Made by a program: the position numbers and the translations under genes
Notes under the pieces: model-generated
What the model saw: only the letters and a program-made list of their open reading frames with translations
Told to the model about the DNA's origin: nothing
The model's database searches: none
Source: Hydractinia symbiolongicarpus
Taxonomy: Eukaryota; Cnidaria; Hydrozoa; Anthoathecata; Hydractiniidae
Direction: 5' to 3'
NCBI RefSeq assembly: GCF_029227915.1
Contig: NC_079877.1
Location: 16,044,851 to 16,108,850, forward strand
Length of the DNA stretch: 64,000 nt
Shown here: positions 17,103 through 57,824 of the stretch, in pieces
Numbering within the stretch: the first letter of the stretch is position 1
Layout of the letters: each line of letters begins with the position of its first letter

Positions 17103-18345
17103 ACCCTGTCATAACATCAATTTTCAACTGTTACTGCATTTGATCTGAATATCCACAGTACAAACATTAAACGTTTGCTTGCTGGCCATAAATGCGGGAA
17201 CACGCCGAAGAAAGCTCCAGTTTTTCACACTGAATTTAACGTCTTGATGTATGTAATGCAACATGCAGTTAGCATGCAATATGCTTACCGTATTTAAGCT
17301 AGGGTTGGACACCCCTACGGACATTAAATTCTGCATGCGCCTTGATGAAATTAAATTATTTATTATTCACCTAATATTTTCCGTAACATTATGCAAATGA
17401 GTTGGAAAAAGTGAGCAAAAACAAAAACATAGAAAAACAGAATTGGTACGGAAACCATTACGTTTACAAAGACAAAGTCAAGGGCAAGAAAAGGCAAGAA
17501 TCCGGTGAATTTTTTGCAGCAACTGATGATTTCGGTTGTAAAAAGTTAATGATTTCACGATTTCGCGGTTTAATTAATGGGTATCTTTAACTATTACTGC
17601 TACTCAACGTGGTCTTTACGGCTTCTTAGTTTTTCTCTTTGGTATATTAAGACGCAATAATATAAAAACAGCAGAAAACCATTGCTTCGACTTTGTTTGA
17701 CCCCAATAACCTAAATAAAACAAAAAAGATTCTCATAGGTTTCTATTTTTTTTTTCTTGATCTGCGAAATCTTCTCCTGTAAAAATTTTAACTGGGCAAA
17801 ACAAGTTAGCGCTTGACGGCCACACACAATCTTCTACGTGCTCAACACACATTATGAGTGTTTCGAGATGCTGGCCACATACAACTGGGAAATAACTGTT
17901 TTGGGAAAAAGGAAAATAGGCCTGGGTACACCGCATTATAAAACTTTACAGAGTTTAGCAAAGTACAAAGTCGACGTGCATTAGTGTGATAGCCCTACAC
18001 CCAAAATATTAAAAATGTAGCTATGCACATTAAAAATCGATCCAAACACTAGTTCGAAAGGAAATATGGAGACGCTATACATACGCTACAGATTGTATGA
18101 AAATGTGAAAAATATGTTCGTACGTAAATTCGCTACATCTAAATGATTTTTAAACAAATTTACATGTGAGGAAATCTATATTAAAATATGTCCACACAAA
18201 ATAACAATTCCCTTAAAAATATATTGGGACAAATTTGCAAAATGGACGAAAAAGTTCCATTGTCTGAATATTTCGGTAAAGGATTAAAGAAAAAAAACAT
18301 GTGTGCAGAACATATCCTGAAATATGTAACCATCGCCCTCTAAGT
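17103..18345. other. Non-coding stretch, nothing recognised
   Basis: No frame with recognisable domains and no repeat borders were found. Confidence 0.4.
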
Positions 18346-19212
18346 GTAAAATGTCGACCATTGAATTTATAATTTCGATTAATTAATGTAAACTGTCGAT
18401 CGCTTGATGTGATATGTCGATCAATTGTTGTGAAATGTCGATTAATTATTGTGAAATGTCGATCAATTATTGTGAAATGTCGATCATTGATGTGAAATGT
18501 CGATCGTTTGATGTGAAATGTCGATCGCTTGATGTGAAATGTCGATCAATTGATGTGAAATGTCGATCAATTGTTGTGAAATGTCGATCAATTGATGTGA
18601 AATGTCGATCGCTTGATGTGAAATGTCGATCAATTGTTGCGAAATGTCGACCAATTGATGTGAAATGTCGATCGTTTGATGTGAAATGTCGATCAATTGT
18701 TGTGAAATGTCTACCAATTGATGTGAAATGTCGGTCAATTGATGCGAAATGTCGACCAATTGTTGTGAAATGTCAATCAATTGTTGTGAAATGTCAATCA
18801 ATTGTTGTGAAATGTCGATCAATTGTTGTGAAATGTCGATCAATTGTTGCGAAATGTCGACCAATTGATGTGAAATATCGATCAATTGTTGTGAAATGTC
18901 GATCAATTGTTGTACAATGTCGATCAATTGATGCGAAACGTCGACCAATTGATGCAAAATGTCGACCAATTGATGTGAAATGTCGATCGTTTGATGTGAA
19001 ATGTCGATCAATTGTTGTGAAATGTCTACCAATTGATGTGAAATGTCGGTCAATTGATGTGAAATGTCGGTCAATTGATGCGAAATGTCGACCAATTGAT
19101 GTGAAATGTCGATCAATTGATGTGATATGTCGACCAATTGATGGGAAATGTCGATCAATGGATGTGAAATGTCTTTCGCGTGATGTGATATGTCGATCAA
19201 TTGATGTGATCT
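18346..19212. repeat. 21-bp minisatellite, about 41 copies
   Basis: The consensus unit is TGTCGATCAATTGATGTGAAA with variants GATCGTTT, GATCGCTT, GACCAATT and GTTGTGAA. Because 21 is a multiple of three and the unit lacks stops, three frames stay open over hundreds of bases (plus strand CRSIDVK repeats; minus strand DISHQLI and RHFTSID repeats). None of these is a real gene. A block at 18646-18750 recurs at 18961-19065 with the same order of variants, an offset of 315 bases or exactly 15 units, which shows segmental duplication inside the array. Confidence 0.95.
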
Positions 19213-20023: not shown

Positions 20024-20035
20024 TCGTGTATTGGT

Positions 20036-20112
20036 GTGAAATGTCAACCAATTGATGTAAAATGTCGACCAATTGATGTGAAATGTCGGTTAATTGATGT
20101 AAAATGTCGAAA
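20036..20112. repeat. Second block of the 21-bp minisatellite
   Basis: About four units (TGTGAAATGTCAACCAATTGA, TGTAAAATGTCGACC and so on) continue the array of 18346-19212 after the insertion at 19227-20023. Confidence 0.85.
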
Positions 20113-21566
20113 AATTGATTGGAAATTGTAGATGTCTTCAGTCATTTACATAACATGTTCCAAACCCATCAAGCTATTTACCATTTTGAATTAACCAGAA
20201 GTTTTATATATAGTGTTCTCCTATATTTTGCAACCATTTCATTTATTTTTATTGCTTTCTCGGTAAAATAAATTTGGAAAAAAGTGATCAATTTTAGGCT
20301 CATTGACTAATAGTTTGTGTCTGCCAAAACTTTTCACAAAAATAAGAGGATAGAAACTTTTAAAATTTTTGGTGCACATTTTGATTCATTTCTTTGCATA
20401 TATTTTATACTTTAAAAAATTATTTGGTAAAATGTTTTGATTTTGCAGATCAAACTTTCGCGTTTAAGAAGATTTTTCGATATATCTTCAATGCCACAAA
20501 CATAAAAGATGGAGACTTGTTTTACATATGGTCTAATTGTTTGCCACGTTTATTACATTTTTGTCGGAAACATTAGAATTGTTTTCAGTTGTGTATTGCG
20601 AAATTCATGTTGTTAGAGTTGTATCATGTGAAGAAGTTGTCGATAATATGATAATCTACTTAAAAAAAATTTTAAACTTAAAAGAAAAGAAAATACTTAA
20701 AGGGAAAACTGCATTTACCAACTTATCCACGCAGCGTCTTATAGCATAATTGCATTACAATCTAACATTCTGATTGAATACTGGTTTTCCATGCGTGATC
20801 AAGTAGCAATTACTTAAACTATGAAATCCTGTGTGATTACAGGTTTTACACAGTAGAACTATGTGTCAATTCTTCACTAAGAATTGTCTACCGAAATCAT
20901 GACAGGCGAGTATATTCGGTGTAAATAAATCAGCACACGGATGTACCATGATAAACCTTCAGCGACATGCAACCGCTGTGCGTGATAAGCTGTCTGATAA
21001 GCCGTTAACATACTGCCGAATGTAGAGTAGTGGGTTCGTCTGCGGCTTGCAGTAAATGGAATTCCACTCACTGCCAGTCAGTATAATAGCGAAGCACAAA
21101 TTAGTATGGTTTTAATTTTATGAAATCACGTCTCACGCATATATGACATAAATATATAAAGTTTATCAAAACTGTCATTTTTGACAGAAAAATTGTGTAT
21201 TTACAGGTAACTTCTTTAAGAATACAATTTCATACATTACTGTGAAAAAAAATAATTTTCCATTATATGGATAAAAATAATTAGAGGAGTTAGATAAAAA
21301 AATTAAAAAAAGGATAAAAGAAAATATTCAAAATTCAAAAAGGAAGACGACTATAATATACAAAAAAAGACCACAATGGACAAACAAAAAGCAAAAAGCG
21401 AAAACCAAAAAAGTAATTAAACAAACAAACAAAATAAAAAATAAAAACAAAACAAACAAACTATTACGGTAGGAAAAACAAGGGCAGCCAAAAACAGCCA
21501 AATAAAATCTGTACATTGAAAATATATTTATAAAAACTTCAAAAAATAATAATATCTCGCTTTTCG
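20113..21566. other. Non-coding stretch
   Basis: Nothing recognised. The A-rich part at 21240-21470 gives minus-strand hydrophobic frames that are composition artefacts. It is the 3' flank of the receptor-like gene that ends at 21567. Confidence 0.4.
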
Positions 21567-33500: not shown

Positions 33501-36500
33501 TGGGGGTACTTAAAGATATTAGGCCAGCCTTTGCTACCGTACAAAAGACAACAGACCCGTATTTTAACAATTCACCTTGATCTGACATTTTCTGACATTC
33601 TAGAGAAAGGGAGTTTACCATCATTCCAGAGAGACGGGTGTCACCATCCTAATAACTCAAATTTGGCACAACAAAATTAAATGACATGTTTTTTTTTTAG
33701 CTATCGAAGCCAATTCATGAAGACTTAAGTAAATATACATACAGCATTGATCACGCTCGTCCGAACTGTCGCTACAATGTACTACACCGTCACATAACGC
33801 CGACGCCAGTATACATTTCTTATCTGCTCTGCATTTGAATGTACCAGGTTTGCAAGAATCTATAAAAAAGAATCTCTATAGTTAAAATAGATATATTAGA
33901 TTTTATTTACAAAAGAACTGGTTATTGAAGATATTATTTCGGTTTGTCTGTTCAGTATTCATATTACTCGGCAAAGTTTATCATTTCTTGAACATGATAG
34001 TTTAGTAAGCGACGTTTCGGGAGATCCTCGGGTGGAAGTAGGATTTCCCGAAACGTCGCCTACCAAACTATCATGTTCAAGAAGAACTGGTAATTAGAAT
34101 TTCTATTAATAATGCAATTATTTGACAAGTCGTATACACAGCAGTTTCATGTGCATTGACGTAAAGAACTGACATAATAAGTGTCTAAATGTAATTGTGA
34201 ATCAATATAAACTCAAGGGTGATATTATTTGTTTAATAAATACATTGAAAAACGTATGAAATGCTACAGTTTGAAGGTCACATTGTTTTGAAAAATATAT
34301 GTAGATCCGTTGACGCAATAACCAAAATGTAGTGGCCAGATGTTAGCGATGCAGGAGGAATTAAATCATTTCGAGTATGACAGAGATAGCTGATTCACCC
34401 ACTTCACCCACCCTCGCCTCCACCTACGCCACACGACCACCTCAGCTCAGTGTCGACTTCCCTATAAACTTTCTGCCCACACTACCTGTAATTTTCACAG
34501 AAAAGCTTGCAGATTCTTCTCCATTTGTGCTGTTAAAAACGCAATGATATATTCCCTGATCTGTTTCACCAACTGGATTTATTGACAACAGGAAAACTCT
34601 GCTTCCGTTTTTAACATGAACTTTAGTATCAAACGATTTCAATTCTTCACTAGCAAGCATCAATACGCGCTTTCCATTGGTTAATGTCTGGTTCCCCTTC
34701 TTCCACCTTACTTCTGGTCTTGGGATTATATCTGGAGGTATGCATAACTGTTGCATGTATCGTGATGTACCAAAGTAAAACGTGACATTGTGTGGAGCCA
34801 ACTGGAACTTGTTATCTCGTCCTGGAAAGGAAATGGTAAAGTTAAGGTTGTTAATGTTGTTGTCTTTTCTTTTATAGTAGGCATAAAATAATTACTGGTG
34901 AAGCCTTCAACATAGCTACATCATAAATTAATGTTTTACTTGACAGAGGTTTTTACACTCCGTACAAATACGGATTAAGCACTGGTGAAACGAATGCTAT
35001 ATTTGATGCAACATTCGATGCAACATTTAAAAAAAATTATTCATTAGAATAAAAAAGTTTTTATTCTCTATCGTGAAAAAAATAACGCGATAGACCATGC
35101 AATTTTCGCATAATTTTGTAGCCACTTGTAGTCATCAGGTAAGTTATTGCAATGTAATTTTAACGTAGGTGGACACCACGCTTAAACTTCTACATGTACC
35201 AAACAATATAGATTCAGTCTTTTCTTTCTTAAGGTTGAGTGTACAGCTTAATTATCTTCAAATCACAATGTTTAGACCAGGTGCTAGATGAGTTTCACTT
35301 TGATACTCCTACCAACAGTATAGGAATACGTATAGGAAAGCAATTTGATCTCATTCGACGTAGTCTTAAACCTTTACGCGACATTACTAACAAATTCATT
35401 GTGTAAACAAAAACAACGAGAGAAGACGTCAACAGCCAAACTTTGGGCTAATTTTGACTGTAGTTTCCACTAAAATCATTCACTATAATCTTTTTTACAC
35501 TCCTGTTGTCATCACTACGCTCAGCCCTCACAATATTAGTTTTTATCAAAAGCGCTTTTTTATCACAAGATGAATTTCAAGTCTTTTTCAGCGCAAGAAA
35601 AAGGAGATACGATTGTCTAATGTTTTGATTTTTCTCCCGTTAGCGCCCCTGCACGTCGGCTTTCGTTGCACATAACTGCAAATATCAAAGACTTAGACAA
35701 GCTACCAAGTGTTCAGAAATCTTCGTTGACGGAAACTTCCCGAATTTCGGCTAAATTCAAATTTTTTTAAGAGCATAAATTCGCGAAAGTTCAGGCACGC
35801 TGAAAAAAAATTTATTTATTTGCGAAAGGTTAAACGGTCACTTAAAGAACCTTTTAGCCAATAACGGTCTTTTCAGTTCTAATATTATGCGTTGATAGGA
35901 AAAAAAAAGATTTAAGGTTCAATTCTTAACATTTTAAAGGTTAACTTTTGGTGATTCGTGAAAGTTTATGCTCCCGAAATATCTCAAGAAGATTAATTCA
36001 CGAAATTTTATGTTTGCAAAATATATTATGACCTATTCGCAAACGTTTATAATCGCTAAATGCAAATATTTGCCCAAGTTTCTATTCGCGAAAGTTTCTG
36101 TGTTTGAATGTTTCTCCACTTAAAGTATCTAACACGTGCAAAGTTTTTCATGAAGTTATTTGCAAAGAAAACTAAAACCAGTGTGTTGATATTTTACATG
36201 GGAGTAACTCTTTAGCATTAGTTAGAAATTTTCAGTTCCGCCGCTTCGTTGATTTTTGTGTCTGCCACTAAAATCTAATACCACGAGCACATTTCGTAGC
36301 CCCTTTAACTTAAGTTCATACATACAGATATTATTGTTCATAAGACTGTTAAACACTATGATGACGTTTGTTTTAATCTGGGACTTTTAATCTGGGAAAC
36401 AACTGCTTATTTACCTTGCACTCTCAGAGTACGTAAAACTATTGAAAATTATATCGCGATGAAGGTGATTGAAATGGCTGCAACTTAAATTCGATGCTAG

Positions 36501-37403
36501 TATATGTAAAAAAATCGCAATTGTCAAAAAGTTTATTTTTCCCCTCAATCTGATCGGAAGTTCTTAAATATAAAAAAGTTCCATACTTATTTCGCTTTTT
36601 CACAGTGATAACAAAGGATCAGTTAAATATTGTCTCGTGACTTTGCAAATTGTGTAAGAACGCCGCAAGCCTTCGCCTGCGCAACGCTCTCCATATTTGC
36701 GAAAAATATTCTACACACAACAAGACTAAATAATTCAAACTAAAAAGAATGTACATGCACGTACTCATGCAACCCAACCTTCTCCCATGTACGCACCATT
36801 TCTTTTCAATACCACTTTCTCCCTGTTCCAACATAATTACGTATTTTACAAAGTAATTCTTACGAAAAGCGCTGTTGTTTCGCCAAAACATTCACAAACT
36901 AACGCCGTAAATAAGGGCACAGAATTAAGCATAGAGCTTTAAAAAAGGTCTTTTTTATTTTTTAAGCACAGCATTTATTGGAGCGCATCATTCTCGCCCT
37001 CAAAGCTTTTTGAAATTCAATCCTCGAAAATTTCGAGGTTTTTTTTTAAGGAGCAGTGGGGTCGAGAATGGAAGAGTGGCGATAAAAGAAGAACCACGTG
37101 CGTTGGTGGTACTTACTTTCTGAACACTCTCCAAACAAATCATTTTCACAAATACCTATTTGTGAAAATGATATGTTTGGAGAGTGGTTTGTTTGCATAT
37201 AATAATAAACGAGAATTTAGGTAAACAATGAAACATAAGAACATGATTAACGGATATGCTGAACGATCTGTTTGTCAATAAAAACAATTCACTTCAAAAA
37301 TAATTTCTTTAAAAGATGAAAACAAAAATAATACATAAACAATTTCACCTTGAGTTAAAACAAGCAGGGTTATTAGAACCATGATAATACTTGCAGAGCT
37401 CAT
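21567..37403 (-). CDS. Single-pass receptor-like protein: Ig, LDLa, fibronectin III repeats, membrane helix
   Basis: Eight minus-strand exons join in frame to 596 residues: 37349-37403 (signal peptide [18 protein letters not shown]), 34486-34821 (Ig domain, Cys...W..K...DQGIYHC), 33743-33859 (LDLa, ending [11 protein letters not shown]), 33092-33370 and 32718-32996 (one fibronectin III domain each), 32224-32569 with 22191-22318 (one or two further FN3-like domains, joined in phase 2), and 21567-21817 (membrane helix [20 protein letters not shown] plus tail). All other junctions are phase 1, typical of shuffled modules. The ~45-residue tail ends in SYDKL, a YxxL-type sorting or docking motif. 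This is probably a cell-surface adhesion or recognition receptor. I know no named family with this order. Extra exons in the 9.9-kb intron (22319-32223) or before the Ig exon cannot be excluded. Confidence 0.75.
24700..24775 (-). mobile_element. Helitron 3' end (decayed)
   Basis: On the minus strand a hairpin CTGTGGATTTTTCCACGG is followed by TCTACGACTAG, the CTAG at 24703-24700. This is the same terminus as in the elements at 809-952 and 9085-9278. The following base is A and not T, and the 5' end was not located, so this is a decayed or truncated copy. Confidence 0.55.
28460..28546. mobile_element. Short hairpin element, copy 1
   Basis: CATTCTAATCTTTCTCAACCC at the left is the imperfect inverse of the right end GGGTCGAGAATG. 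The centre is another inverted repeat, GATAAAGCCTCGCATTTCGAGGTTTATC. A copy with the same ends and a CCTCGAAAATTTCGAGG centre lies at 36989-37070. Confidence 0.55.
33985..34083. repeat. Large imperfect palindrome in an intron
   Basis: The left arm (33985-34025: TTCTTGAACATGATAGTTTA...CGACGTTTCGGGA) and the right arm (34045-34083) are inverse copies with few mismatches, separated by about 20 bases. It would form a ~40-bp stem in RNA or single-stranded DNA. It lies between the Ig and LDLa exons of the receptor-like gene and looks like a foldback MITE. Confidence 0.8.
35740..36130. repeat. Cluster of TTCGCGAAAGTTTATG-type words
   Basis: Words such as TTCGCGAAAGTT, TTCGTGAAAGTTTATGCTC, TTCACGAAATTTTATG and TTCGCAAACGTTTAT recur every 30-80 bases. 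This is probably the core of a decayed repeat family. Similar words occur near 1340-1390 and 50680. It lies in the first intron of the receptor-like gene. Confidence 0.5.
36989..37070. mobile_element. Short hairpin element, copy 2
   Basis: CATTCTCGCCC at 36989 and GGGGTCGAGAATG ending at 37070 are inverted. The centre CCTCGAAAATTTCGAGG is a near-perfect palindrome. It is related to 28460-28546. Confidence 0.6.
37126..37185. repeat. Near-perfect 28-bp-arm palindrome in first intron
   Basis: ACTCTCCAAACAAATCATTT followed by TCACAAAT is the inverse of 37158-37185 with about one mismatch and a loop of only a few bases. It lies about 160 bases downstream (in transcript direction) of the signal-peptide exon of the receptor-like gene. 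Confidence 0.85.
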
Positions 37404-50305: not shown

Positions 50306-50768
50306 TACGATGGCCCCTATGGCTCACTTCTCTTCTCAATAAAAATACTTCTCTTCTTAGTCAAAACACTTCTCTTCTGTATAACAACACTTCTCTTCTG
50401 TATAAAAACATTTCTCTTCTGTATAAAAAACTTCTCTACTTTGATACCTAAAGTTCTCTTCCGTTCGAAACACTTCTCTTCCAAGTGCAAAACACTTCTC
50501 TTCCATAAGCTCGAAAATTTCCCAGACTGAATCTGGTCCTTAATATATGAATTTATTCAAATATTGTTTATGAATAAATGGCACACCCCAGGCCCTGCGC
50601 ATAGGAAATTTTGGACCCAGTAAAGTTTGCATAAATTCTTACGGGGGCATATGAACGTTTCTACAAAATTAGATTTTTCGCGGGAAAAACTTTGCGAAAT
50701 TTTAAGCTATATTCTTATACGGTTCCAGAAGCGTAATACGAGATAGCTTTTTTTATCTAGTGCCCAGG

Positions 50769-50900
50769 AATAAACATTGATTGTGATGTCTGTTAGGAAC
50801 AGAACTCGTGGTTTTCAAAAAACAAGATATTTTTTTTGCAGCAATAAACATTGTGATGTTTGTTGGGAAAAGAACTCGTGGTTTTCAAAAAACAAGATAT
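50769..50900. repeat. Tandem duplication of a ~66-bp segment inside the transposon
   Basis: AATAAACATTGATTGTGATG...AGAACTCGTGGTTTTCAAAA (50769-50831) is repeated at 50843-50900 with a few changes (a four-base deletion and some substitutions). It lies just downstream of the transposase stop codon. Confidence 0.8.
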
Positions 50901-50946
50901 ATATATTTCTAAAATCCAAGCATTTTACATTGTTACAGGTGTTGTA

Positions 50947-51826
50947 TTACATATATCTTTCTACTGCACAAATCAATGCGATATAATAATCAATAGCTTC
51001 ATGAGCTGTCTCTGGCTTAAGTTTGGAGAAACCCTCCATTGGAAGAACTGTTTCCGCAAATTCAATAAATTCAGGCTCATTATCGTGATCTGGTACAGAT
51101 AGTTCGATAAACTCTTCTAGCTCATTAAGATCTAAAGTTTTTTTAAAAGACTCGCAACCATATAATTCTGGAACAAAGTACAATGTATCAGGCCTTCCAC
51201 GGGGAGCAGTAGCACCTTTGCTTGTTGCTAACAGATGTTGATTCCAATGAATCGCAAATTCATTAAGGTCCTTTCTGATCAAATCCATAAAGCAGTAGCG
51301 TACACATTCAGCAATGAGTGCATCACCGGCATCTAAAAATCCTAAGTCTGCAAGTTCTCTAAAAAATAACCTCCACCAACTTGGTCTGTCTTTTGAAAGT
51401 TGTGACCAAAAAGATTCGATTCTTTGATTTGCTGTTGATGTACCAACAATAAAACTGCCAGTGCCAACATATTCGTCATTATGCTGAGATCTTAATGCAA
51501 TCTGAACAGCTTCCAAATTACAGTTTTCAGTACCATCATCAGACCTTATTCTTGCTGGAAGATGATTTAACTGCTTATTAGATTTTATAAAAAAGTTTGT
51601 AATAACTTTAGGCTTTTTGTTCGTTCTACTAACTTCTAACCAAATAAGCCGACGGGAGAAACCGTCTATACAACCATGGATGCTAAAACCAAACGGCTTA
51701 AGTTTGTCATGCCCGTCAAAGATGCCACAAAAAATCTGGCCCAGGAACGCAATAATTTCTTCTTCTTAATCTTTTCTTTTTTATTGAAGAAACACCTTCA
51801 GGGTCTAATTCTCTCAGAATTTCCAT
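50947..51826 (-). pseudogene. Integrase-core transposase with one frameshift
   Basis: Read on the minus strand from an ATG at 51826: MEILRELDPEGVSS, a basic stretch, then YCVPGPDFLWH, a frameshift near 51720, then DGHDKLKPFGFSIHGCIDGF, SRRLIWLEV, RIRSDDGTEN, ANQRIESFWSQLSKD and about 150 more residues to TAA at 50947. The three acidic residues of an rve-type DDE core are present (HGCIDG, SDDGTE and RIESFW). The WH.DG(Y/H)DKLKPFG signature places it with the integrase-core proteins common in fish and cnidarian genomes. One extra T in the CTTTGA stretch shifts the frame, so this copy is not functional as it stands. The N-terminal DNA-binding part is not visible; family similarity stops at 51826, where an AAATTAGG-type repeat region begins. 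Confidence 0.85.
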
Positions 51827-52230
51827 CACAGTCAGTTAGGGACAACTGCAAATTAGACTATTTCTCCTAAATAAGCTAGTAGCTAAATTAGGAGATTTTT
51901 AATAGCTTAACTTGGAGAGAGTAGTCTATTTAGGAGATGGAATATTTTAATCGACGATATCTTCGCAATCTTTGTTGGTCGCGCCACTATTTTGCCTGTA
52001 CTACTTGCTGACTTAGTCATCTTTGCTTAGGTGAAATTTCATAGAATTTGCATAGCGGATATAAAAGTTATACATAAAAACATGCCCACCAACTAAACTC
52101 GTTTCCAATCGACTAGAAATTATATCTCTGTGACTAGAACAAGGTCCGGGGCGAGATTGTCCAAATATCTTATTTAGTCTATGATAGCGTAATTAGGACA
52201 TCTTGCCTAACTAGTATATTATTTTCCCGC
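51827..52230. repeat. TAGGAGA / CTAAATTAG repeat region within the transposon
   Basis: CAGTCAGTTAGGGAC at 51829 and clustered words CTCCTAAATAAGC, CTAAATTAGGAGA, CTATTTAGGAGA and GTAATTAGGACA resemble the subterminal repeats of the MITE at 48353-48937. This may be a nested MITE insertion that replaced the transposase 5' end. A matching right terminus was not found. Confidence 0.45.
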
Positions 52231-52539
52231 AAAAAAACTGAAGGTTTCGCGCCACAAGTTTCCTTTTTCATTATTATTGAACTTATTAGAAAGTAACATA
52301 CACGTCTTAAAAAATGGCTAGTTTAGACAATGGTTAAAACTACGGACCAGTGATGTAAAATTGCGGACCAGATTTTAGAATTCGAGTTGTAAAGAGCCAC
52401 ATGCAGGGAAGTGTTAAGTGCAGAAGAGAAGTGTCAAAATACTGAGGGGAAGTGTCAAAATACAGAAGAGAAGTGTTTCGTTATATAGAAGAGAAGTGTT
52501 TTTGATTTAGAAGAGAAGTGAGCCATAGGGGCCATCGTA

Positions 52540-54760: not shown

Positions 54761-56048
54761 AAAAAGTTGAATTAGAAAGGCTGAACATAGTGTATATAAG
54801 TTCCAGCTATGTTAATTTCTACCCAATTTAGTCCCAGGTTGTCCCTAGTTACCCATGCAGCAAAAAATGACTGACGTCACCACCCTATTTCTATTTTTTT
54901 TGGCCTCAAAGTTTTATGATATTGATGTGACATTAATTTAATTAACGTTGTGTCGTAACGTCAGAAAATTTACCATTTGAGACATAACTTTTTCAACGAC
55001 ATCAAAGGAAAATGATCGCATCCACTTTGCCTGTTACAGATAGACATACACATATGCAATCTTCGTATTCTTACATAGATACGCTACAGCTACAATACGT
55101 GATGTGTCAGTTTGGACTCCCATTCATCTTAGAAAATTGCTCCAAACTAATCTTTCGAAAGCCAGGTTTAACCTCTTTAGGTCTAAATCAAGTTACCAAA
55201 CTGATTATCAATATAGCTATTAGCTAGATATTATTAGTCTGGAAAAATCTGAGTTCTAGGTCAGTCCCAGAAAGGTGTTACTCTAAATGATCTGTGGCGT
55301 ACATTATTTGCTCATAAGGGTTCGCATCCATTTTATGTTCCCATGAAAAAAGGTCAAATCTGTGGCAATCTGATTATAACCTCCTAAAGGTTGGTCTGTA
55401 TATTAAAAACCTGTATGCAGAACTAGAAAATGCAATATCCGTTCATCTGTGATTATAGTCCATTAGCAACCATTTTTGCTTGTTTGACCGAAACGCCACT
55501 TATCACAGAGGAATCAAACTCCCACCCAGGCTGCTGTTTTTGGATCATGCTAAACCAAAATAATTTTGACCCAACGTGAAATTGGTGAGCATAGAATTAA
55601 AAATTTTTTGTCTAAGATACTTAAAACTTCTCTTGTTTCTTAATCCAACCCTATGCAATGATGAGGAAACCATTGATTATAATTATCGCGCAATTGGGCG
55701 CTGAAAATGGCTTATCAATTATCTCCCTTCTTGTCACAAAATATCTGAAACAAACATTCTCCATGTTTTACCTTATCCTTAGGGCTCTTAAACACCCATG
55801 ATCTTCTTACAGGACAGCTTCATAAAAGCCATCCTGTTAGATTATTATAGGTGTAGAAGAGCTCAGGGGAGAAGGTTGGTTATGAAGTTAACATATCTGA
55901 AAAAAAGCTGGATATTAATTGCTTTGGTTCCAGAATAATAACACAAATTGATAGAAACAATGTATTTCTGTTGGAATGAGTAGATACAACACATTCAGTA
56001 TGCGTAGACTATTTATAAAATTTTTGGGGAATGGGTAGGAATGAAGGT
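54761..56048. other. Non-coding stretch, nothing recognised
   Basis: No frame with a known domain and no repeat borders were seen before the hairpin array. Confidence 0.4.
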
Positions 56049-56813
56049 GCCTCCTTCGTGCTCCGTCATATGCACAAATATATAATGCATAACCTGAGCG
56101 TCAGGTTATGCGTTATAGGCGTTTTCATGCTCTGAGCGTCAGGTGCATGAGACAGATGAGATGCACTGAGCGTCAGATGCATCGACATGTCCTGAGCGTC
56201 AGGCACATGCTAATTATGGTGTTCTCTTCCATACCCTGAGCGTCAGGTGTATGAGAGATGCCCTGAGCGTCAGGGGCTTCATCATGCCCTGAGCGTCAGG
56301 CGCATGTTTCTTATTCACATAATGACTACACTAGAGATGCCCTGAGCGTCAGGTGCATCGACATGTCCTGAGCGTCAGGTACATGCTAATTACTGGTGTT
56401 TTTATTCATACCCTGAGCGTCAGGTGTATGAGAGATGCCCTGAGCATCAGGGACTTCATCATGCCCTGAGCGTCAGGCGCATGTTTCTTATTCACATGAT
56501 GACTACACTAGAGATGCCCTGAGCGTCAGGTGCATCGACATGTCCTGAGCGTCAGGCACATGCTAATTACTGGTGTTTTTATTCATACCCTGAGCGTCAG
56601 GTGTATGAGAGATGCCCTGAGCGTCAGGGGCTTCATCATGCCCTGAGCGTCAGGCGCATGTTTCTTATTCACATGATGACTACACTAGAGATGCCCTGAG
56701 CGTCAGGCGCATCGACATGTCCTGAGCGTCAGGCACATGCTAATTACTTGTGTTCTTATTCTACAATGACTTTTATCATAACATTACTTGCCTAAACGGC
56801 TGACGAAGGAGGC
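56049..56813. repeat. Array of 19 palindromic hairpin modules (CTGAGCGTCAG) in a 177-bp higher-order unit
   Basis: Cores CTGAGCGTCAG start at about 56094, 56132, 56166, 56192, 56236, 56263, 56289, 56342, 56368, 56413, 56440 (one-base variant GAGCATCAG), 56466, 56519, 56545, 56590, 56617, 56643, 56696 and 56722. From the third on, five hairpins repeat every 176-177 bases. Each core lies in longer arms that are themselves complementary but differ between positions: CATAA/TTATG, CATGT/ACATG, CATAC/GTATG, GATGC/GCATC and CATGC/GCATG. GCCTCCTTCGT at 56049-56059 is the exact inverse of ACGAAGGAGGC at 56803-56813, so the whole array is enclosed by a potential closing stem. It has no coding potential. 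Confidence 0.95.
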
Positions 56814-57824
56814 CCAACACACCCACCAATTAAATTAGAGGCTCCCTACAGACTTGTTGTTTCTACCTCTGGACTAAAACCCTGACATAACATGAGCCAA
56901 AAGAAATGTCAGGGAAACCTTGAGGCAGAAGCAATTTGTCTGGTTATGTTGTGCTGCGTGCTCACATAACAGTTGTGATGTGGTTGTCTTTAGTTGCATT
57001 GGAGAGGTTCATGATATTTCCATTTCGACTCGAGTCCATTGCACCACGATGATTGAATTGGTATCTCATCCACCATTAGTAGGCGTGTTGATGACATAAA
57101 ATAAAAAAAAAGAAATAGGTGAAAAAAATCAATCTATAAAAGGGTGGGAGGGTGGGTAACTGTAAGCTGTAAGGTACATCTGAAGAACTTGTGCAGTGTG
57201 GGATGTTGGGTTCTTATATGCAACCATTAATAATCAAGACCTGGGTAGGGTCCAGTTCCTTTACAGGCAAGTGAGACTAATAACCCTGGCAATCTTTAAG
57301 ATTAGGTCTATAGGTAGAAACCACCCCCACTGTGTCAGGCTCTACATGACATGTTTAATGACTAAGGTAAACCTAATGTATATTAAAGAACTAATGTATA
57401 CTAAAGAACTGTAATTCTGTCACCACAATTAACATGAGCAAAACTTGCAGTTTAGCTCCATTTTAGGTAAAAATATGCCTAGATGTGACAACAACAACTC
57501 CTCCCAGATCTGGGACATGGAAAATTAGTGTGGTATACAAGGGTGCCAACTCGCCGAAAATGCATTATGCTATATACTAATTTTTTAACTTGTCTAGATA
57601 AACATTTTAGAACAAACTTTTGTGCATTTTCACTTTGTTAAAAATAATTTTTTCAAGAATGTGTTATATAAATATATATGTTGCAACTTTGTTTTAGAAA
57701 TTGTAGAAACTGATTTATCTTATATAATTTCTTGCTTTCTTTAGAATGAAATACATCACATTATACGCAAACATTTAACAACTATAATAGTTGTAAATAG
57801 ACATGACTTCATCAGCTGTTTAAA
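56814..57824. other. Intergenic stretch upstream of the GRXCR-like gene
   Basis: No recognisable gene; the 72-codon frame at 57196-57414 shows no domain. The sequence just before 57825 is AT-rich with no named promoter element. Confidence 0.4.

Follow-up and report, generated by a model that had tools for sequence, protein, structure and literature searches.

A compensated hairpin array at the centre of a mobile element resembling non-autonomous Helentrons

Introduction

HINE and DINE-1 elements, as described in the sections of the source consulted, are non-autonomous Helentrons: they are non-coding, insert at TT without target duplication, and carry inverted repeats near their ends, a 3′ palindrome and, in some copies, tandem central repeats (PMC4067079). 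A related arrangement is found in FoHeli, a Helitron2-type element of Fusarium oxysporum, for which the extracts of the source give an asymmetric terminal inverted repeat about 20–40 bp from the 3′ end (PMC5148889). In the excerpted literature the inverted repeat of Helitron2 and Helentron elements has a published range of 11–15 bp, and satellite-like arrays in non-autonomous Helentrons are described without a role being given to them. No report of hairpin arrays in Helentrons was found in titles and opening lines of abstracts, a search that does not prove their absence. Hairpins with a bulge that are recognised as single strands by HUH or tyrosine enzymes are familiar from IS200/IS605, REP/RAYT and integron attC.

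A preliminary description of the window (the whole stretch of 64,000 nucleotides of Hydractinia symbiolongicarpus DNA that was analysed, to which positions refer unless a copy is named) reported an array of hairpins at 56049–56813. Here we show that this array forms the middle of a mobile element 1546 bp long, and we weigh what its hairpins may do.

Results

The core CTGAGCGTCAG occurs 18 times exactly and once with a single change (CTGAGCATCAG at 56440), all on the + strand between 56094 and 56732, and is absent from 100 dinucleotide shuffles; the 19 hairpins with a conserved core that had been reported are thus borne out. So is the unit repeating every 176–177 bp: core starts lie at 56166, 56342, 56519 and 56696, and Tandem Repeats Finder gives a period of 177 bp with 3.4 copies that are 96% alike (56158–56761, + strand). 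No stop-to-stop frame of at least 120 aa overlaps 56049–56813.

In the usual hairpin, lower and upper stems of 5 bp each are separated by a single unpaired base on the 3′ side, and the loop is GCG. The 19 are not all of one type, since hairpin 1 (56081–56117) is a bulge-free 17-bp stem with one mismatch, hairpin 3 (class H3, 56160–56183) has its bulge shifted one base toward the loop, and the GATGCC...GGGCTTC hairpins hold a T.T mismatch in the stem. The last form class H6 (hairpin 6, 56257–56280; hairpin 11, 56434–56457, with a GCA loop; hairpin 16, 56611–56634). Hairpin 2 (56126–56149) makes up class H2. The remainder fall into class H4, with CATGT/ACATG arms (hairpins 4, 56186–56209; 9, 56362–56385; 14, 56539–56562; 19, 56716–56739), class H5, with CATAC/GTATG (hairpins 5, 56230–56253; 10, 56407–56430; 15, 56584–56607), class H7, with CATGC/GCATG (hairpins 7, 56283–56306; 12, 56460–56483; 17, 56637–56660), and class H8, with GATGC/GCATC (hairpins 8, 56336–56359; 13, 56513–56536; 18, 56690–56713); all lie on the + strand.

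The array is surrounded by an inverted repeat of 18 bp, 83% matched (56049–56066, beginning GCCTCCTTCGT, and 56796–56813, ending ACGAAGGAGGC), with a core of 11 bp that is exact. The exact left 11-mer is also present in copies L032, L034 and L036, and the right one in L036, L038, L049 and L050. The 11-bp repeat that had been said to close the array is therefore real, as the core of this longer pair, but it does not close the feature, which continues past 56813. A simple inverted-repeat element ending at 56049–56813 was considered and rejected because other copies share sequence outside this interval, up to 55915 and 57460.

These wider limits come from a comparison of the window with 20 loci around the first listed core clusters, in which the sequence in common extends well past the array. 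The element (55915–57460, + strand, inserted at T|T) starts TTAATTGCTTTGG and ends GAGCAAAACTTGCAGTTTAGCTCCA, its limits being the points at which the flanks of other copies diverge. Besides the window, the 5′ end was read in seven loci with five different flanks and the 3′ end in four with three different flanks; in L031, L038 and L049 the alignment stops short of the 3′ end. Read from the sequence, the first seven bases, TTAATTG (55915–55921), are complementary to CAATTAA (57426–57432), 28 nt from the 3′ end, and the two make an asymmetric terminal inverted repeat of 7 bp only. The 3′ terminal hairpin, GAGC-A-AAACT-TGC-AGTTT-A-GCTC (57436–57458), folds as predicted into a 3-nt loop, a 5-bp stem, an A/A mismatch and a 4-bp stem, and lies 3 nt from the end of the element; its energy is unremarkable against shuffles (z −1.24). 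Between the array and the 3′ features lies a right module (56826–57396, + strand), which is missing in the 459-bp copy L078 and, in the long copy L061, has about 4 kb in place of part of it.

Elsewhere in the window, an ORF at 50947–51765 (− strand) encodes an integrase core domain (PF24764, E 6e-30) and is flanked by two inverted arrays of 21-bp GAAGAGAAGTG-type repeats (50325–50503 and 52421–52520; inverted match 81%), so that 50306–52539 resembles a DNA transposon carrying subterminal arrays of repeats. At 18345–19209 there are 41 copies of a 21-bp repeat with the palindrome TCAATTGA, open in several frames, with a second short stretch at 20030–20126. Self-complementary stretches occur at 33985–34083 (99 bp, 83%) and 37125–37186 (62 bp, 94%), and the gene content of the window includes ShK, Ig and fn3.

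The preliminary description had suggested a search of the genome for further copies, which was run and found copies with double-sided changes. Across the genome (481 Mb), the core CTGAGCGTCAG has 997 matches and the reversed control 24; the 997 are not a count of hairpins because part of them belong to an unrelated one-core repeat. This dispersed repeat, found at 8 of the 20 loci compared (L039, L040, L041, L043, L044, L046, L047 and L048), has a single core in a conserved context with unpaired arms. The ends are better markers of the element. At up to three mismatches, a 33-base pattern for the 5′ end has 97 genome copies, 37 of them exact (the window's own 5′ end is one G short of the pattern and so falls outside the 97), and a 25-base pattern for the 3′ end has 109 copies, 58 of them exact among the 100 listed; the reversed controls gave none. 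Among the 3′ ends listed (100 of 109), 63 of the 97 5′ ends are followed on the same strand by a 3′ end at no more than 12 kb and 34 are not, against a single case with an opposite-strand partner. The end-to-end lengths range from 129 to 6279 bp and cluster at 1533–1586 bp.

Approached from the array, the first look gave 171 candidates, of which 40 were scored. Same-strand 3′ ends (opposite-strand ends being uncounted) lie within 8 kb downstream of 31 of the 40, 15 of them at 603–681 bp. The number of units varies: among the 40 scored matches, 12 cover positions 1–536 and five cover 1–359 of the 765-base query, limits that are 177 apart. Three pairs of loci, L057/L060, L058/L059 and L062/L063 (the dimers), consist of near-duplicates and do not count as independent. 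L057/L060 (near 24.80/32.43 Mb) and L058/L059 (near 27.37/29.18 Mb) are segments of 6–10 kb on contig C1 that are 97% identical, opposite in orientation and hold an array each; they have the appearance of recent inverted duplicates. In a long form of the element (L061, 5358–9559; C8:2027697–2032671), the array and the 3′ end are separated by a second short array and by about 4 kb that is apparently non-coding; no stop-to-stop frame above 103 aa overlaps L061 5300–9860. The preliminary description had raised the possibility of a hairpin-propagating repeat. The unit that propagates is neither the hairpin nor the 177-bp repeat; it is the array-carrying transposon, which has defined ends.

Is the array needed by this transposon? 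Of the 12 shortest end-to-end copies, a ranking based on the ends irrespective of hairpins, 11 were inspected (the second of two 978-bp copies was omitted). Nine retain 2 to 13 cores at up to three mismatches, and in the 459-bp copy L078 seven hairpins are present with nearly all of the right module gone. The other two, L079 (129 bp) and L082 (654 bp), have no hairpin core. The array is thus usually kept; the two core-less copies mean that it is either not obligatory, such copies having transposed without it, or was lost after insertion.

We then come to the arms. When right arms were swapped among the 12 distinct hairpins, the true combination gave 62 contiguous pairs, where 20,000 shuffles averaged 28.0 and went no higher than 57, so the reported complementarity within each hairpin stands, for hairpins of more than one type. 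The array is a tandem repeat, as would be an ordinary satellite with chance palindromes, the fallback of the preliminary description; that explanation is contradicted both by arm complementarity above all 20,000 swaps and by the same-strand element 3′ ends downstream of 31 of 40 scored arrays, and we regard it as extremely improbable.

Comparison between copies gives a more detailed picture of the pairing. The 24 loci used yielded 394 core hits (up to two mismatches), of which 371 fall in nine positional classes and 23, fitting no class, were dropped. Between classes there are double changes that keep the pair (C:G/T:A and G:C/A:T in the inner arm, C:G/G:C at the outer pair), and copies of the long hairpin 1 differ by T:A/A:T and A:T/G:C. 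Double changes are therefore found between positions and, for hairpin 1, between copies. The within-position differences GGTGCATC/GGCGCATC and GGCACATG/GGTACATG, previously placed among changes that mostly keep a pair or fall on the bulge, sit on the bulged base and are not compensatory. Covariation was scored on alignment A1, 24 bulged variants picked by hand, each seen at least twice, without H1 and H3 and with at least one further class H6 variant seen twice left out. In these variants, paired cells (92.5% versus 85.2% shuffled), cells changed on both sides (17 versus 5.5) and the covariation score (0.233 versus 0.110) were each matched by none of 500 shuffles. The other two of the five measures do not stand out from the shuffles: four pairs showed double changes, a number attained by 37 of 500 shuffles, and the observed count of further pair types was attained by 426 of 500.

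In 269 hairpins from five classes, the arms diverge from their class consensus by 3.2% and 3.4% and the bulge by 13.8%; the values are 1.9% for the core stem, 4.2% for the loop and 12.6% and 7.4% for the two flanks. Of these, the core figure is lowered by hit selection, and the flank and bulge figures are partly raised by mixed contexts. Within classes the changes are mostly one-sided and break the pair (64 A.C, 55 G.T and 71 other mismatches), as expected from decay of copies after insertion. Six standard pairs are changed on both sides, and 13 one-sided changes give a standard pair, at places where the long-hairpin consensus is itself unpaired. Taking the arm swaps, the low divergence of arms relative to bulge and the covariation against shuffles together, the earlier proposal that hairpin structure is maintained is upheld, and it seems that the shape of the hairpin, and not its sequence alone, was kept during the evolution of the element.

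Maintenance of this kind could also arise without function, if arms were corrected against each other in hairpins formed at replication (by template switching or intra-strand repair) and spread by duplication of the unit. Such self-correction suits the transversion pairs among the double changes (C:G/G:C at the outer pair and T:A/A:T in hairpin 1), which cannot be passed through by a G.T step, as well as the variable number of 177-bp units between copies and the existence of copies without any hairpin core. It should, however, erase the unpaired bulge, which persists in the bulged classes with a variable base. Also against it, at least 2 of 27 copies have hairpin 1 in a one-sided form (TGCATAAC/GATATGCG), as stepwise change would give, although later decay may account for this too. 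We consider functionless self-correction possible, if rather unlikely.

Turning to the mode of movement, L062 and L063 each hold two elements head to tail, with the joint ...AGCTCCA-T-TTAATTG..., and the genome has eight such joints at up to three mismatches (six with none, one with one and one with three; control 0). All 10 copies whose 3′ flank was read continue with a T; at the 5′ end, TT is present in 10 of 10, in copies that had been chosen by a pattern beginning with T. No target duplication is visible in the flanks of the copies read, and a local check of copy flanks found no empty sites. Where a canonical Helitron1 has 5′ TC, 3′ CTRR and insertion between A and T, the element has the ends TTAATTG... 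and ...GCTCCA and is inserted at T|T. It shares with Helentrons and HINEs the T|T insertion without visible duplication, the 3′ hairpin and the head-to-tail joints, and fits a non-autonomous Helitron2/Helentron-like rolling-circle element (HINE). Against this assignment, no RepHel partner with these ends was found among the candidates scored, and the end repeat, although fittingly placed, is at 7 bp shorter than the published ones.

In the search for a partner, no Helitron_like_N match was found within 36 kb of the 3′ ends (150 matches listed, from 150 of 435 candidates scored, against 100 3′ ends listed), and no autonomous partner was seen among the open frames of seven loci (L051, L054–L058 and L061), judged by eye without a family scan. 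Neither the phage collection nor a search of viral contigs for the hairpin pattern gave a match. In the genome as a whole, Helitron_like_N matches number at least 151; several have open frames of 1500–2100 codons, and many Helitron genes are apparently intact. The head-to-tail joints and the absence of visible duplication would also be explained by integration of a circle through some other mechanism, for example a Crypton-like tyrosine recombinase, with the hairpins as recombination sites. We regard this as improbable in view of the 3′ hairpin, the asymmetric repeat 28 nt from the 3′ end and the T|T site, which are given as signs of Helitron2 and Helentrons in the excerpted sources (PMC5148889, PMC4067079), and of the abundance of Helitron_like_N genes in this genome.

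The preliminary description had also proposed a structured non-coding RNA or a piRNA or siRNA source. Such an RNA would be transcribed from the array and serve in protein binding, nuclear retention or as a source of small RNAs. Both strands of the array fold better than 20 shuffles each (z −8.15 for +, z −10.93 for −), which is the one result in its favour. Rfam gave no match at gathering scores over the whole window. Stems of 10–11 bp are short for Dicer-type substrates. One-sided G.T changes (55) are not favoured over A.C changes (64; p = 0.46), and therefore selection on RNA is not indicated, a comparison that mostly sees decay after insertion and that RNA selection on active copies could escape. 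An RNA role is in our judgement quite unlikely. Since there is no bias to G.U-type changes and no Rfam match, and both strands fold, any role of the hairpins would be placed at the single-stranded DNA stage.

Discussion

On balance, and with moderate confidence, we read the array as the central tandem-repeat module of a non-autonomous transposon that moves by a rolling circle or circular intermediate, most like Helentron/Helitron2 elements (HINE), with hairpins that would act at the single-stranded DNA stage. The hairpins may fold on the strand displaced during transposition, and, once folded, could serve as repeated binding or pausing sites for putative transposition proteins, either an HUH-type Rep or a single-strand-binding partner. 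The array hairpins and the 3′ terminal hairpin are alike in having a 3-nt loop, a 5-bp upper stem, a discontinuity and a lower stem of 4–5 bp; from this likeness we conjecture that the same protein may read both.

A more specific model, which we put forward tentatively and hold to be unlikely as it stands, is that of a multi-hairpin platform. In such a platform, tandem structures resembling the terminal hairpin, most with a conserved unpaired base, would fold on the transposing strand and recruit or pace the HUH transposase, and the arms would diversify by compensated changes, perhaps to stop neighbours from pairing with each other. If true, the element would be a rolling-circle transposon of eukaryotes in which the central satellite serves as a recognition array for single-stranded DNA. 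An array of maintained hairpins turns into a testable idea the suggestion that such repeats may be single-stranded DNA signals and not passengers; such a test is within reach given the large number of copies, the head-to-tail joints and a natural series of sizes from 129 bp to 6.3 kb.

The array hairpins resemble those of IS200/IS605, REP/RAYT and attC, short imperfect hairpins with an extrahelical base that act there as single strands; the analogy would be one of form only, as those systems are bacterial. With FoHeli the element shares an asymmetric repeat near the 3′ end, a terminal hairpin (in some FoHeli groups) and joined-end forms suggestive of circles; autonomous FoHeli members encode RepHel, and the extracts of the source mention no hairpin array (PMC5148889). 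Cg_HINE of the Pacific oyster likewise has dispersed satellite-like arrays, placed between the two modules of an element of Helentron type; palindromes are not mentioned for its monomers in the excerpted account, and its microsatellite module has no counterpart listed by the repeat search within the element here (PMC7492417). The closest likeness is to HINE and DINE-1, which, in the sections consulted, are also non-coding, inserted at TT with no visible duplication, and furnished with inverted repeats near the ends, a 3′ palindrome and, in some copies, central tandem repeats (PMC4067079). The dimensions differ, with end repeats of 7 bp here against 12–15 bp in mite HINEs, and a 3′ hairpin 3 nt from the end against 8–35 bp in HINEs (same source and sections). 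The central repeats of our element are hairpins with compensated arms, which those sections do not describe for HINE or DINE-1 (PMC4067079), and these compensated hairpins are the unusual part of the element.
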